This document shows positions 20,934 to 42,117 of a stretch of DNA of 64,000 nucleotides, piece after piece. The notes under the pieces are model-generated. The model was not told the DNA's origin, searched no databases, and worked only from the letters and a program-made list of their open reading frames with translations. Source of the stretch: Mucispirillum schaedleri ASF457. Lineage in GTDB: Bacteria; Chrysiogenota; Deferribacteres; Deferribacterales; Mucispirillaceae. Within the stretch, counting starts at the first letter, position 1. Each line of letters begins with the position of its first letter. The translations under genes and the position numbers were made by a program. The stretch is taken from contig NZ_CP097562.1 in the NCBI RefSeq assembly GCF_000487995.2, positions 1,113,001 through 1,177,000 of the forward strand, in the 5' to 3' direction.

Positions 20934-21596
20934 GTGCCAGTTTTATATGTTGCAGGGGTATCTATAAGTGAAAATATAAAAGATATCCCTGAAAAAACAT
21001 TAAATGTAATAAATAAATGCAGTGTAGCAGTTGGTGAAGAAAGAAAAGTATCTTTAAAACTTTTAAATGCAGCTTCAAGCAGTGCAAAGCTTTATTTAAT
21101 AAACGAGCATACAGAAGATAAGGAAAGATATGAAGTATTAAAGGCTGTGGAGCAGGCAGAATATTCTGTATTTTTTTCAGATGCTGGCACACCCTGCATT
21201 TCTGACCCAGATTATAAATTTATAAGTATGTGCAGGGACAAGGGAGTTATAATAAAAAGCCTGCCTGGACCAAGCTCAATAACTTCTGCCATAAGTGTAT
21301 CAGGTATTAATTCAAAAACATTTTTTTTTGCTGGTTTTCCACCTAGAGAACGCGAAAAACGGAAAAAGTTTTTTGAAAACATAGAAAAAAGCAGTGTTAC
21401 ACAGGTATTTATGGAACGCCCTTATGCTCTTTCTGCCACATTAAAAGATATGTTATTTTTTAAAAGAAAAGTAAGCATATCGCTAAATCTAGACTGTAAA
21501 GATGAAGTTACATATTATGACTATCCTGATAAGTTGTTAGAAAAACTTGATGGAGTAAAAGCACCTTTTGTGATAGTAGTAAGTGGAAGAAAATAA
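20934..21596 (+). CDS. RsmI-like tetrapyrrole-methylase-family methyltransferase
   Basis: At 220 residues this SAM-dependent methyltransferase has RsmI features: SDAGTPCISDPDYKFI, LPGPSSITSAISVSGI and FFFAGFPPRER. RsmI 2'-O-methylates C1402 of 16S rRNA. The protein is shorter than usual (about 280) and starts with GTG. The N-terminal LYVVATPIGN-type motif is replaced by LYVAGVSISENI, and the C-terminal domain is missing. It may be a diverged paralogue of RsmI; a second copy elsewhere in the genome would settle this. It is not one of the cobalamin methylases. Confidence 0.75.
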   Translation: MPVLYVAGVSISENIKDIPEKTLNVINKCSVAVGEERKVSLKLLNAASSSAKLYLINEHTEDKERYEVLKAVEQAEYSVFFSDAGTPCISDPDYKFISMCRDKGVIIKSLPGPSSITSAISVSGINSKTFFFAGFPPREREKRKKFFENIEKSSVTQVFMERPYALSATLKDMLFFKRKVSISLNLDCKDEVTYYDYPDKLLEKLDGVKAPFVIVVSGRK

Positions 21597-22469
21597 TAAA
21601 GAATTCTCTAGACTTATCCAAAAACTTTATATATTTTTGAGTGTAGTAATATTTTTACACTGCATATATTTTTGAAACACTAATATATGTTTTCCTGAGA
21701 GAATGCAAGCGAGCGAAGGAACTATTAAACATTATTATTATAGATACTTCGCATTTCGGTTCAATAAGACAGGGAAGCAGGCTCAGGACGAGCCGTCTTT
21801 AGTGAGCGATAGCCGAACTTGTTTCGGCAGAGTGTGCTTTAAAAAATACAAGGATGTATTTTTTAATAAAGGGTAAATAAAGATACTTCGCCTTTCAGGC
21901 TCAGTGTTACTAAGGTAGGGACAGGAAGTCCCGTCTGAAAGTAAGCGACGGGAGCATTTACTGCGACAAAGTGTTATTTTTCAAATTCAAGGACGAATTT
22001 GAAAATAAAGGACAATTAAGATACTTCGCATTTCGGTTCAGTAAGACAGGGAAGCATGCTCATTAAGATATAATTTTACGAGTATCAGTATCTTACTTAA
22101 ATTTGCATAATTTTTTGAATGCAACAGTATCTTTATACTGCATATATTTTGAAATACTAAAATATGTCTTCCTGAGTGAGTGAAAGCGAGCGAAGGAACT
22201 ATAAAAACAGATAATTTAAATATAGTCCACTCTGATGCAACAAGAGATAATTTAGATTTTTTGCCTTTAAAAAATCAGGCTAAAAATGACTGTTGCACAA
22301 ATTTTTTGGATAATGCCAGAAGCATCTTTTTATCTGTAAGTCTATTTTATCATTGGTAGAAGTCAAATATTTGTTAAAAATTTTATTTGTGAAATTATGA
22401 TAAGATAAATAATATGTTTCTGATGTTGTATCCTAAATTTTCTTAATAATTAAGCTATTACTAAAATTT
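21597..22469. repeat. Complex repeat region between convergent rsmI-like gene and mutS
   Basis: This 873-base stretch has no convincing ORF. It has a nested repeat organisation. A unit ending GCGAGCGAAGGAACTA is present at about 21656-21723 and again at about 22135-22201. A unit beginning GATACTTCGCATTTCGG is at about 21743-21784 and again at about 22021-22061, with a related GATACTTCGCCTTTCAGG at about 21892. Between these lies the hairpin array. A partial copy of the palindromic element ends with CAGGCTAAAAATGAC at 22290, followed by an AATTTTTTGGATAA motif. From about 22320 to 22469 only AT-rich sequence is seen. Confidence 0.75.
21718..22052 (+). ncRNA. Candidate CsrA/RsmA-sponge RNA: array of GGA-loop hairpins (locus 1)
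   Basis: Nine GGA triplets occur in 335 bases, and four sit in loops of perfect hairpins. Hairpin 21780-21794 is GGCTC-AGGAC-GAGCC. Hairpin 21841-21864 has a 9-base stem around AAGGAT. Hairpin 21918-21932 is GGGAC-AGGAA-GTCCC. Hairpin 21978-22005 has an 11-base stem around AAGGAC. The second contains ATACAAGGATGT, which matches the published CsrA SELEX consensus RUACARGGAUGU at every position. A further hairpin at 21812-21828 (GCCGAA/TTCGGC) lacks GGA. A stem at 21930-21952 competes with the third. I saw no clear promoter or terminator, so expression and strand are inferred. Confidence 0.4.
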
Positions 22470-25013
22470 TTATAGAGCTGCTTTTTTCTTTAAATCGGTT
22501 AAAATCTGTATAGCCTGTATAGGTGTAATATTATCTATATCTATAGATTTAAGCTCATCTATTACGGGATGAGAATTATCAAAAACAAGTATAGGCTGCA
22601 CAAATCTTTGTTTTTGCTTAGGCAGCTTTTTTTCCTGCATAAGAGAAATGTCTTCATGGTTTTCTAAATCAGAAAGAACTTCGTTTGCTCTTTTTATAAC
22701 ACTTTCAGGAAGTCCAGCCATTTTGCCTACATATATACCATAGCTTTTATCAGCTGTTCCTTTTATGACTTTTCTTAAAAATATAACTTCATTATCCCAC
22801 TCTTCAACACTTACAGTATAGTTTTGAGCACCTTTTCCTTTTTCGCCTATTTCTGTAAGCTCAAAATAATGGGTGGCAAATAATGTTTTAGCACCAATAT
22901 TATTTAGTATATATTCAGCTACTGCCCATGCTATAGAAATACCATCAAAAGTGGATGTTCCTCTGCCTATCTCATCAAGTATAATAAGTGAATTTTTGGT
23001 AGCATTTTTTAAAATATTAGCAGTTTCAACCATTTCAACCATAAAAGTAGATTCTCCCCGTGAAAGGTTATCGCTTGCACCAACTCTTGTAAAAATCCTG
23101 TCAAGCAGTGGAATTTCTGCCATATCAGCAGGAACAAAGCAGCCACAGTGAGCCATAATTGCAATTAATGCACTGGAGCGAAGATATGTGCTTTTACCGC
23201 TCATATTAGGACCTGTTATAATTAAAAGCCTGTTTTCATCATTATCTAAATAAAAATCATTTGGCACAAACGCATCTTTACTTTTATTTTCTACAACAGG
23301 ATGTCTGCCTTCTTTTATATTTATTATACCATTTTCCAGTATTTTTGGGCGACTGTAATTATTTTTTATGCTTATATTTGCAAAAGCTGCAATAGTATCT
23401 ATCTCTGCAATAAGTTTTGCAAGCTGTCTTAAATTATCAGCCTGACTTGAAGCATATTTTCTTATATCTTGAAAAATAGAATACTCTATATCTGCAAGTT
23501 TTTCTTCTGCATTTAATATTTTATTTTCTAACTCTCTTAATTCATCTGTAATAAACCGCTCACTGTTTGCAAGGGTCTGTTTTCTTTCAAAGTATGCTGG
23601 CATTTTTGCTGCATTTATTCTTGAAACTTCAAAATAATATCCAAATACTTTATTATAGCCTATTTTCAGCTGACTTATACCAGTTGCCTTTCTTTCTCTT
23701 TCTTCTATTTCTAATATTAATGATTTGCCATTATGTTTAATATCCCTAAGTTCATCAACATGGCTGTTATACCCGCTTTTTATAATTCCACCCTCTTTAA
23801 TAGCAGCAGGTGGCTCATCATTTATTGATTTTTCAATTAAAAAATATAATTTTTCCTGAGCATCAAGTTTATATTTTGCAAATATATCAGGCACTGATTG
23901 CAGCATAGCATCAAGCTCTGGAATATTTTTTATAGAAAGTTTAAGCCATATTAAATCCTTTGGTGTGGCTCTGCCTGAAATAAGTCTTGATGTAATACGC
24001 TCTATATCAAATATATTTGATAAAAGTCCATTAACTGTGCTTAAAAACGACGGGTTATTTATAAAATATTCCACAATATCAAGCCTTGTATTAATCTGGG
24101 CAGTATTTCTCAAAGGTCTTGTAATAGTGTTTTTTAAAAACCTTGCACCCATTGGTGTAGATGTCTGGTTAAGAATAAAAAATAAAGTATTATCTTTTCC
24201 GTAATCAGATGTTGTAAGCTCTAATGTAGAAGAAGCAACACTGTCTATTATTAAATTATCTGCATCATTTAATGTAACAGGCAGCATAAGTTTTGTTGTA
24301 AGTATCAAATCATCAAGATAATCAAGGACCATAGCTAATGCCCAGATATATCCTTTATCTTCAATGAATAATGCTTTTTCACTTGTAACAGAGTAATGAG
24401 AAAGAACTCTGTTTAGTGCTGTATTATAATGCTTTCCAGAATTTCTTATAGTAACAGGTATATTATTTATATCTACATCAATATTTGCAATAATTTCCTT
24501 TGCTTCCATTGAATGAGTATTTTCTTCTAATGTATCTACTGGTATAGTTTTTAAATATGTTTCTCCAGTAGTAACATCAACTGCTGCCATGTATATTTTA
24601 TCAAGTTCTGCATAAAGACTTATTAAAAAGTTGTTATCAAATGCAACAACTGCTTCATCATCTATTGCTGTTGCAGGTGTAACAACTCTTGTAACTCCCC
24701 TTTTAACAACACCTTTAACAAGTTTAGGGTCTTCCAACTGTTCGCATATTGCTACTTTTTTACCTGCTTTCAAAAGTTTAATAAGGTATGGCATATAAGA
24801 ATGATAAGGTATACCGCATAAAGGTATTTGATTTTCTGATGATTTGTTGCGGCATGTGAGAGCAATACCTAATATTTTAGAAGCTGTAAGAGCATCATCT
24901 CCAAACATTTCATAAAAATCACCCATCCGAAAAAAAAGAATAGAATCTGGATACTGCTCTTTTATATCATAAAACTGTGCCATTGCTGGTGTAACATTTT
25001 TTGGTTTTTGCAT
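22470..25013 (-). CDS. mutS: DNA mismatch repair protein MutS
   Basis: MutS recognises mismatches and recruits MutL. The 847 residues have the MutS1 order: mismatch-binding domain with FRMGDFYEMF (Phe-x-Glu), connector and lever domains, clamp, then the ATPase domain with Walker A ITGPNMSGKSTYLR and Walker B SLIILDEIGRGTSTFDG, plus the ATHYFEL motif. The C-terminus ends shortly after a linker that mentions LEN and IDNITPIQAI, as in other MutS1 proteins. It is the last gene of a minus-strand operon (HIT, lapA, lapB, mutS), 17 bases after lapB. Confidence 0.97.
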   Translation of the reverse strand: MQKPKNVTPAMAQFYDIKEQYPDSILFFRMGDFYEMFGDDALTASKILGIALTCRNKSSENQIPLCGIPYHSYMPYLIKLLKAGKKVAICEQLEDPKLVKGVVKRGVTRVVTPATAIDDEAVVAFDNNFLISLYAELDKIYMAAVDVTTGETYLKTIPVDTLEENTHSMEAKEIIANIDVDINNIPVTIRNSGKHYNTALNRVLSHYSVTSEKALFIEDKGYIWALAMVLDYLDDLILTTKLMLPVTLNDADNLIIDSVASSTLELTTSDYGKDNTLFFILNQTSTPMGARFLKNTITRPLRNTAQINTRLDIVEYFINNPSFLSTVNGLLSNIFDIERITSRLISGRATPKDLIWLKLSIKNIPELDAMLQSVPDIFAKYKLDAQEKLYFLIEKSINDEPPAAIKEGGIIKSGYNSHVDELRDIKHNGKSLILEIEERERKATGISQLKIGYNKVFGYYFEVSRINAAKMPAYFERKQTLANSERFITDELRELENKILNAEEKLADIEYSIFQDIRKYASSQADNLRQLAKLIAEIDTIAAFANISIKNNYSRPKILENGIINIKEGRHPVVENKSKDAFVPNDFYLDNDENRLLIITGPNMSGKSTYLRSSALIAIMAHCGCFVPADMAEIPLLDRIFTRVGASDNLSRGESTFMVEMVETANILKNATKNSLIILDEIGRGTSTFDGISIAWAVAEYILNNIGAKTLFATHYFELTEIGEKGKGAQNYTVSVEEWDNEVIFLRKVIKGTADKSYGIYVGKMAGLPESVIKRANEVLSDLENHEDISLMQEKKLPKQKQRFVQPILVFDNSHPVIDELKSIDIDNITPIQAIQILTDLKKKAAL

Positions 25014-41647: not shown

Positions 41648-42117
41648 GTAATGGACTTTGAACTCAGCCAAAAAATTTTTGCAGCAGACATTTTTTTAAG
41701 CCTGATTTTTACAGGCAAAAATCTATATTATATATCTTGCAATAATCTATAATATTTAAATTATCTATGTTTTAGATACTTCGCCTTATCAGGCTCAGTA
41801 TGACCTATGGCTTTCATCTTGCAGTCATTTTGAGCCTGATTTCATAGGCGAAAAATCTATATTATACATATTACAATAATCTATAGTATATTTAAATTAT
41901 ATCTTTTAGATACTTCGCTATATCAAACTCAGTATGACAATGCAGGGACAGGAAGTCCCGTCGCATAGCGTAAGCGATGGGAGCATTTACTGCGACCGAG
42001 CGTGGTTTTTCAAATTCAGGGATGAATTTGAAAATAAAAGATAAATTAAGATACTTCGCCTTATCAGGCTCAGTATGAGCCATCTTTATTATACATATTA
42101 CATTACTTCATAATATC
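41648..42117. repeat. Convergent intergenic region with two palindromic repeats and a GGA-hairpin block
   Basis: This 470-base gap lies between the transporter gene and galE, which converge. It has a first palindromic element at about 41697-41804 and a second at about 41824-41938. Both run in the opposite orientation to the copy at 2443. A half element (GATACTTCGCCTTATCAGG) lies at about 42049-42078. Between these is the hairpin block at 41945-42034. No ORF was seen. Confidence 0.75.
41945..42034 (+). ncRNA. Candidate CsrA/RsmA-binding hairpin block (locus 2)
   Basis: The first hairpin (41945-41959) is GGGAC-AGGAA-GTCCC, identical to locus 1. The overlapping stem 41957-41981 (CCCGTCGC with GCGATGGG, one G-U pair) competes with it, as in locus 1. 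The third hairpin (42007-42034) has the same 11-base stem as locus 1, but the loop is AGGGAT in place of AAGGAC. Around the loop the sequence CAGGGATG matches the core of the CsrA consensus. The loop GGA and stem are retained while other positions vary. No promoter or terminator was recognised, so this may be an untranscribed repeat. Confidence 0.35.

Follow-up and report, generated by a model that had tools for sequence, protein, structure and literature searches.

A dispersed, structured repeat with two CsrA-type GGA loops in Mucispirillum schaedleri and two families of the Deferribacterales

Genes and hairpins at the locus

The window analyzed here is a 64-kb stretch of DNA (bases 1113001-1177000) from the 2.35 Mb single-contig genome of Mucispirillum schaedleri, referred to below as the focal genome (G000). 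Within the window, a tail-to-tail gap separates a gene whose translation reads as an rsmI-type methyltransferase (20934-21596, plus strand) from a putative mutS, also named from its translation (22470-25013, minus strand). This gap holds a dense array of hairpins with GGA in the loop. In the 335 bases at 21718-22052 there are ten GGA triplets, one more than the nine counted in a first-pass annotation of this DNA, and a single TCC. Of hairpins with a GGA loop and a stem of 5 bp or more, this segment has four; 2000 dinucleotide shuffles gave 0.076 on average and never more than 2, and no other stretch of the 64-kb window matches this density. All four perfect hairpins described in that annotation are present, three of them exactly as given; the second has a longer stem and spans 21839-21866 rather than 21841-21864. 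The hairpin-bearing strand has a stable predicted fold (z = -3.8). The reported match of hairpin two to the CsrA consensus is exact, as ATACAAGGATGT (21846-21857) agrees at 12 of 12 positions with RUACARGGAUGU, the CsrA SELEX consensus (PMC7652899).

The four hairpins are not independent of one another. A single element, present here as two tandem copies, supplies all of them as its first and last hairpins (H1 and H4), and a third copy lies elsewhere in the window (Table 1).

Table 1. Coordinates of the element copies, their hairpins and the flanking repeat in the window
Feature	Position	Strand	Sequence or score
Element copy 1	21779-21866	+	model R1, 92.2 bits
H1 of copy 1	21780-21794	+	GGCTC[AGGAC]GAGCC; CAGGACG, CsrB-repeat-like
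H3 of copy 1	21812-21828	+	GCCGAA[CTTGT]TTCGGC
H4 of copy 1	21839-21866	+	TTAAAAAATACA[AGGA]TGTATTTTTTAA; includes the 12/12 CsrA SELEX consensus match
Element copy 2	21917-22005	+	model R1, 89.1 bits
H1 of copy 2	21918-21932	+	GGGAC[AGGAA]GTCCC
H3 of copy 2	21954-21964	+	GCA[TTTAC]TGC core, flanks GG-GA / GA-CA
H4 of copy 2	21978-22005	+	TTTTCAAATTC[AAGGAC]GAATTTGAAAA
Third element copy within the window	41944-42034	+	model R1, 86.7 bits
Second REP-like palindromic repeat, flanking half	21742-21785; repeated 22019-22062	+	GATACTTCGC...GGCTCA; mosaic partner of the element in the focal genome

Other repeats share this neighborhood. A further direct repeat (TTTTGAAA.ACTAA.ATATGT.TTCCTGAG...GCGAGCGAAGGAACTAT) is found on both sides of the two tandem copies (21629-21729 and 22107-22206, 477 bases apart). 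The second REP-like palindromic family (GTCATTTTGAGCC...GGCGAAAAATCTA...TTTAGATACTTCGCC...GGCTCAGTATGAC) adjoins many element copies in the focal genome, and its sites in the window are 21742-21785, 22019-22062, 41776-42070, 43157 and 2474 (minus strand).

Structure and distribution of the repeat

When hairpins are parsed across the genomes of the genus, the element is approximately 88 nt long and comprises, in order, H1, a CTT..AAG linker, H3 and H4. H1 is a short hairpin with the loop A(N)GGA[ACT], H3 carries the loop YTTRY, and H4 is a long hairpin with a stem of 11-13 bp and the loop ANGGA[TC]; the spacing from the GGA of H1 to that of H4 peaks at 65-69 nt. Double compensatory changes were found for all 21 of the pairs predicted by RNAalifold. 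Among 53 sequences from the genus, 98.4% of the cells are paired and 275 double changes were counted, as opposed to 69.5 in shuffles and 40-71 in slid controls. The first-pass annotation had remarked on differing stems with agreeing loops within the one array, a pattern that extends to covariation across ten species and to a second family.

The loops behave differently from the stems. GGA is kept in about 57 of the approximately 62 genuine focal-genome copies, a set collected without GGA as a requirement, and decayed copies in this genome carry AGTA, AGAA or TAAA loops. The loop base preceding GGA is close to uniform (A16 G16 T13 C13 among the listed focal-genome matches that keep GGA). Loops in relatives follow A-GGA-[TAC] in H1, where the selection used for the survey itself demanded an A(N)GGA pattern, and AN-GGA-[TC] in H4. 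Covariation, the free N and the retention of GGA together indicate turnover of the stems and of the N base around a fixed A..GGA, and the A(N)GGA loops are the site of strictest constraint in the element. Loss of stems or of the loop GGA in other copies had been named beforehand as evidence that would count against the CsrA-sponge reading; examined by covariation, the copies as a set do not display this loss, and the absence of csrA, named alongside it, does not apply either. No sequence conservation was seen beyond H1-H4, nor was a promoter or terminator seen that had been conserved along with the element.

Base pairing provides a mixed picture of whether the element acts as RNA or DNA. The stems of H1 and H4 are almost purely Watson-Crick, with G.U pairs at 0.8% and 0.45%, respectively, versus 7% in tRNAs of the same loci. 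The mismatches of H3 comprise thirteen G.U and no A.C, several of them of common ancestry. A comparison of G.U with A.C therefore splits the element into DNA-like H1 and H4 and an RNA-like H3.

The suggestion that the array is embedded in a repeat family was borne out. A DNA search identified 112 partial matches in the focal genome. Each of the nine other species of the genus also had matches, and many of these centered on the long GGA hairpin. A covariance model (R1) built solely from sequences of the genus identified at least 86 copies in the focal genome and 10-35 in each of the other species. Beyond the genus, R1 detected a single copy in another genus of the same family and also matched copies from three genera of a second family, where the stems are unrelated to those of the genus and the loops are the same. 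A broader model (R2) added a fourth genus of the second family, bringing the element to 22 of 385 genomes, with none of its matches in the 334 genomes from other phyla. The filters applied in these large model searches were strict, and weaker or more distant copies may have escaped them. Searches of Rfam at gathering and relaxed thresholds returned nothing credible, including no CsrB, CsrC, RsmY or RsmZ, and known phages, plasmids and viral contigs gave no match. In the main text of the genome paper for Mucispirillum schaedleri, neither dispersed repeats nor csrA came up in a term search. The element is a real, structured and previously undescribed repeat with two CsrA-type loops, and its distribution covers two families of the Deferribacterales.

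Placement relative to genes and replication

Orientation was scored relative to codirectional genes using mechanical ORFs rather than curated genes, and on this basis 53 regions were sense and 39 antisense in the pooled set (p = 0.17), with 4 sense and 11 antisense in the focal genome. Among relatives in the genus, a start codon is no more than 60 nt away for 19 of 46 sense copies, compared with 4 of 30 antisense copies (p = 0.011); in the focal genome, no sense copy was found near a start codon. Focal-genome statistics are drawn from the 685 kb surrounding matches, in which convergent gaps are over-represented among the sites of the copies (23/42 vs 76/400, p = 1e-6). The element forms tandem arrays in which clustered copies mostly run in the same direction, and no inverted pairing of whole elements was seen. 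In a closed genome of the sister family (G032, L172-L191), the GGA strand follows replication direction and GC skew in 26 of 30 clusters (26:4, p = 6e-5; cluster strands counted by hand from the hit table and skew), and the copies that follow it include some lying antisense to their genes. The focal genome shows no apparent bias of this kind and G036 gave no clear pattern, and a replication-strand rule for the element in general was rejected.

Several copies in relatives occupy leader regions. The RNase E/G gene is preceded by one to three tandem copies directly before the Shine-Dalgarno sequence in four species (G001, G002, G003 and G005; loci L221, L229, L223 and L230), and copies also stand right before the Shine-Dalgarno sequence of argJ in G003 and G004. 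The G005 RNase E/G leader has three tandem copies, in which the distal H4 loops are ATGTGC and ATGGGC and the start-proximal one is ATGGAC. In the corresponding leaders of G004, G006 and G007, H4 is interrupted at its loop by another repeat, and the focal-genome leader (L227) has what looks from its letters like an H4 remnant only, the 3' arm (GATGTATTTTTAACAGGAG). This range of intact, decayed and interrupted copies suggests that the site is old in the genus and not essential. In L220, L224, L225 and the distal copy of L221, H4 has an insertion of a second repeat (GGGAGCG...GCAGCTGG) at its GGA loop, as if the loop were an insertion target.

The element is also found in a late operon of a prophage, one that contains major head, sheath and tape-measure genes, and all five copies there are sense. 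These lie in the gene gaps of a G006 operon (L096, 5712-15796) and start no more than about 14 nt after the upstream stop codon. Some of the Shine-Dalgarno sequences of this operon also have an additional inverted repeat in front of them.

CsrA and the competing readings

A search for csrA, as had been recommended for this genome, identified a single gene directly after fliW (PF02599, 91.8 bits), the product of which keeps the VHR motif. Every one of the 22 element-bearing genomes contains csrA, and the element was not found in any of the nine genomes of the phylum that lack csrA; the association (naive p ~0.003, a hand calculation that ignores kinship) is weak because the carriers cluster in two families. 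The loops of H1 and H4 have the form of CsrA/RsmE recognition sites, ANGGAN or A-GGA with N free, RsmE is reported to bind ANGGAN hexaloops, and the pattern of fixed A and GGA with a free N also agrees with the SELEX set (PMC7652899). A CsrA dimer can span two sites up to 63 nt apart (PMC7652899), which places the 65-69 nt spacing of the element at the edge of the bridging range. SELEX hairpins mainly have stems of 4 bp or less, and stable stems have been suggested to hinder CsrA (PMC7652899); the 11-13 bp stem of H4 is atypical in this respect.

We tentatively interpret the locus as two tandem copies of a dispersed element of about 88 nt whose two A(N)GGA hairpins, held at fixed spacing, are read by CsrA as RNA. 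The data favor a loop-reading factor, for which CsrA acting at the RNA level is the foremost, if still tentative, candidate. Stem covariation, loop retention (also in other genera with unrelated stems), the free N, the spacing, the fliW-csrA pair, the presence of csrA in every carrier, the start-codon placement in relatives, with the RNase E/G leaders and the sense copies of the prophage operon, and the G.U pairs of H3 all favor this possibility. Weighing against it are the absence of a strand preference and, in the focal genome, of sense copies near starts, the scarcity of G.U in H1 and H4, the long stems, the absence of a conserved promoter or terminator, the replication-strand pattern of G032 and the clustered nature of the csrA association. 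If CsrA does read the loops in the transcribed strand, any transcribed copy would constitute a two-site CsrA-binding element. Leader copies just before the Shine-Dalgarno sequence in relatives would affect the gene that follows them; those in 3' regions, such as the pair after the rsmI-type gene, would be passive decoys at most. The element would function as a CsrA-binding RNA module and not as a dedicated CsrB gene, with its copies multiplying as a repeat. A more ambitious and rather doubtful extension is that a repeat family made a mobile regulatory module out of a CsrA-binding hairpin pair, spread in dozens of copies over the genomes and prophages of two families of the Deferribacterales, which brought RNase E/G and other genes under CsrA in some species and whose transcribed copies jointly set the level of free CsrA where FliW is present and no CsrB is known.

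CsrA sites in mRNA leaders include those of the glgC type, and the flaA leader of C. jejuni is a CsrA-titrating mRNA. Similar to these, some copies in relatives present a GGA hairpin near the Shine-Dalgarno sequence and two GGA sites per RNA; unlike them, the element recurs before unrelated genes and also lies far from genes. The small RNAs that sequester CsrA or RsmA (CsrB/CsrC and RsmX/Y/Z) likewise contain several A(N)GGA-loop hairpins, and csrA is present here; the CAGGA[ACT]G loops of CsrB repeats also occur in the element. It differs from CsrB/RsmZ in numbering at least 86 scattered copies where such RNAs have one gene or a few, in its 88-nt unit with two GGA hairpins, its long and perfect H4 stem and its lack of resemblance to an Rfam family, in the absence of a detectable promoter or terminator of its own, with conservation stopping at H1 and H4, and in its occurrence in a fliW-csrA lineage.

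The first-pass annotation had proposed a candidate CsrA sponge, either a CsrB-like RNA or a protein-binding repeat derived from one; as a gene, the former would be a dedicated CsrB/RsmZ-like sRNA locus at 21.6-22.5 kb. Its CsrA component is supported by the A..GGA loops with a free N and the presence of csrA; a CsrB-like RNA at this locus is not supported. The four perfect GGA hairpins in 335 bases, the complete SELEX match and the stable fold would fit such a gene; however, dozens of further copies are scattered through the genome, with no strand bias relative to transcription, none of the Rfam sponge families matches, and an anti-correlation between CsrB-type RNAs and FliW has been reported (PMC4894983). 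The dispersed repeat, the lack of strand preference and of a conserved promoter or terminator, and the near absence of G.U in H1 and H4 together make a dedicated gene highly improbable, and a promoter-driven sRNA unit was rejected given that no conserved sequence was seen outside H1-H4. We consider it equally remote that the repeat is functionless, its loops and palindromes being maintained by a few master copies and template-switch correction of imperfect palindromes. Decayed copies and the apparent H4 remnant before the focal RNase E/G gene are consistent with such drift, but other genera have unrelated stems and yet the same loops and spacing, with the adjacent loop base free. An RNA element at intercistronic junctions and leaders might instead have a reader that is not CsrA; an RNase, a phage antiterminator and further RNA-binding proteins are examples. 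The multi-hairpin layout, the conserved YTTRY and CTT..AAG motifs that CsrA does not need, the sense copies at similar offsets between prophage genes and the recurrence before RNase E/G would suit such a reader; the strictest constraint, however, falls on the A(N)GGA loops and antisense copies are common, and we regard this explanation as quite unlikely.

The main rival to CsrA reading, somewhat unlikely in our judgment, is a REP-like repeat that works and spreads as DNA, forming hairpins in single strands such as the lagging-strand template, with the GGA loop as a mark for a recombinase or other DNA enzyme and any RNA binding incidental. It would account for the rarity of G.U in H1 and H4 relative to tRNAs, the intergenic copies and their enrichment in convergent gaps, the tandem arrays, the G032 strand pattern with its antisense copies, and the mosaic with another REP-like palindrome. 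Compensatory changes are likewise seen in REPINs, which spread extragenically and form tandem clusters (PMC3116915). The element resembles REP, REPIN and BIME sequences in being extragenic, multicopy and palindromic with compensatory hairpins, and in its tandem clusters and preference for convergent gaps; it differs in its asymmetric multi-hairpin unit with polarity, in the placement of some copies in leaders and prophage operons, and in that the Y1/RAYT transposase is absent from the focal genome and many other carriers. REPINs are inverted pairs of REPs flanked by a conserved tetranucleotide; the conservation seen in the element is that of its loops. Reading as DNA must also accommodate the lack of an apparent replication bias in the focal genome, the coincidence of the loop letters with a known RNA-protein motif, the sense copies in leaders and intercistronic gaps of relatives, and the acceptance of G.U and not A.C in H3.

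If CsrA reads the loops, the dispersed repeat would carry binding sites for a global RNA regulator from place to place as a ready-made module. This case would lie outside the Gammaproteobacteria, among lineages whose CsrA is thought to be controlled by FliW, and would suggest a route by which new genes enter the post-transcriptional regulon. If the loops are read as DNA, they would point to a hairpin-loop-reading enzyme, not known before, that spreads repeats without a RAYT. Under either reading, the element is one without a counterpart in Rfam. A REPIN driven by a RAYT was rejected as a candidate, as no Y1 transposase (PF01797) was found in the focal genome or in many other carriers. In an element-free relative (G028, contig C2), seventeen Y1 transposase matches of identical score were observed.
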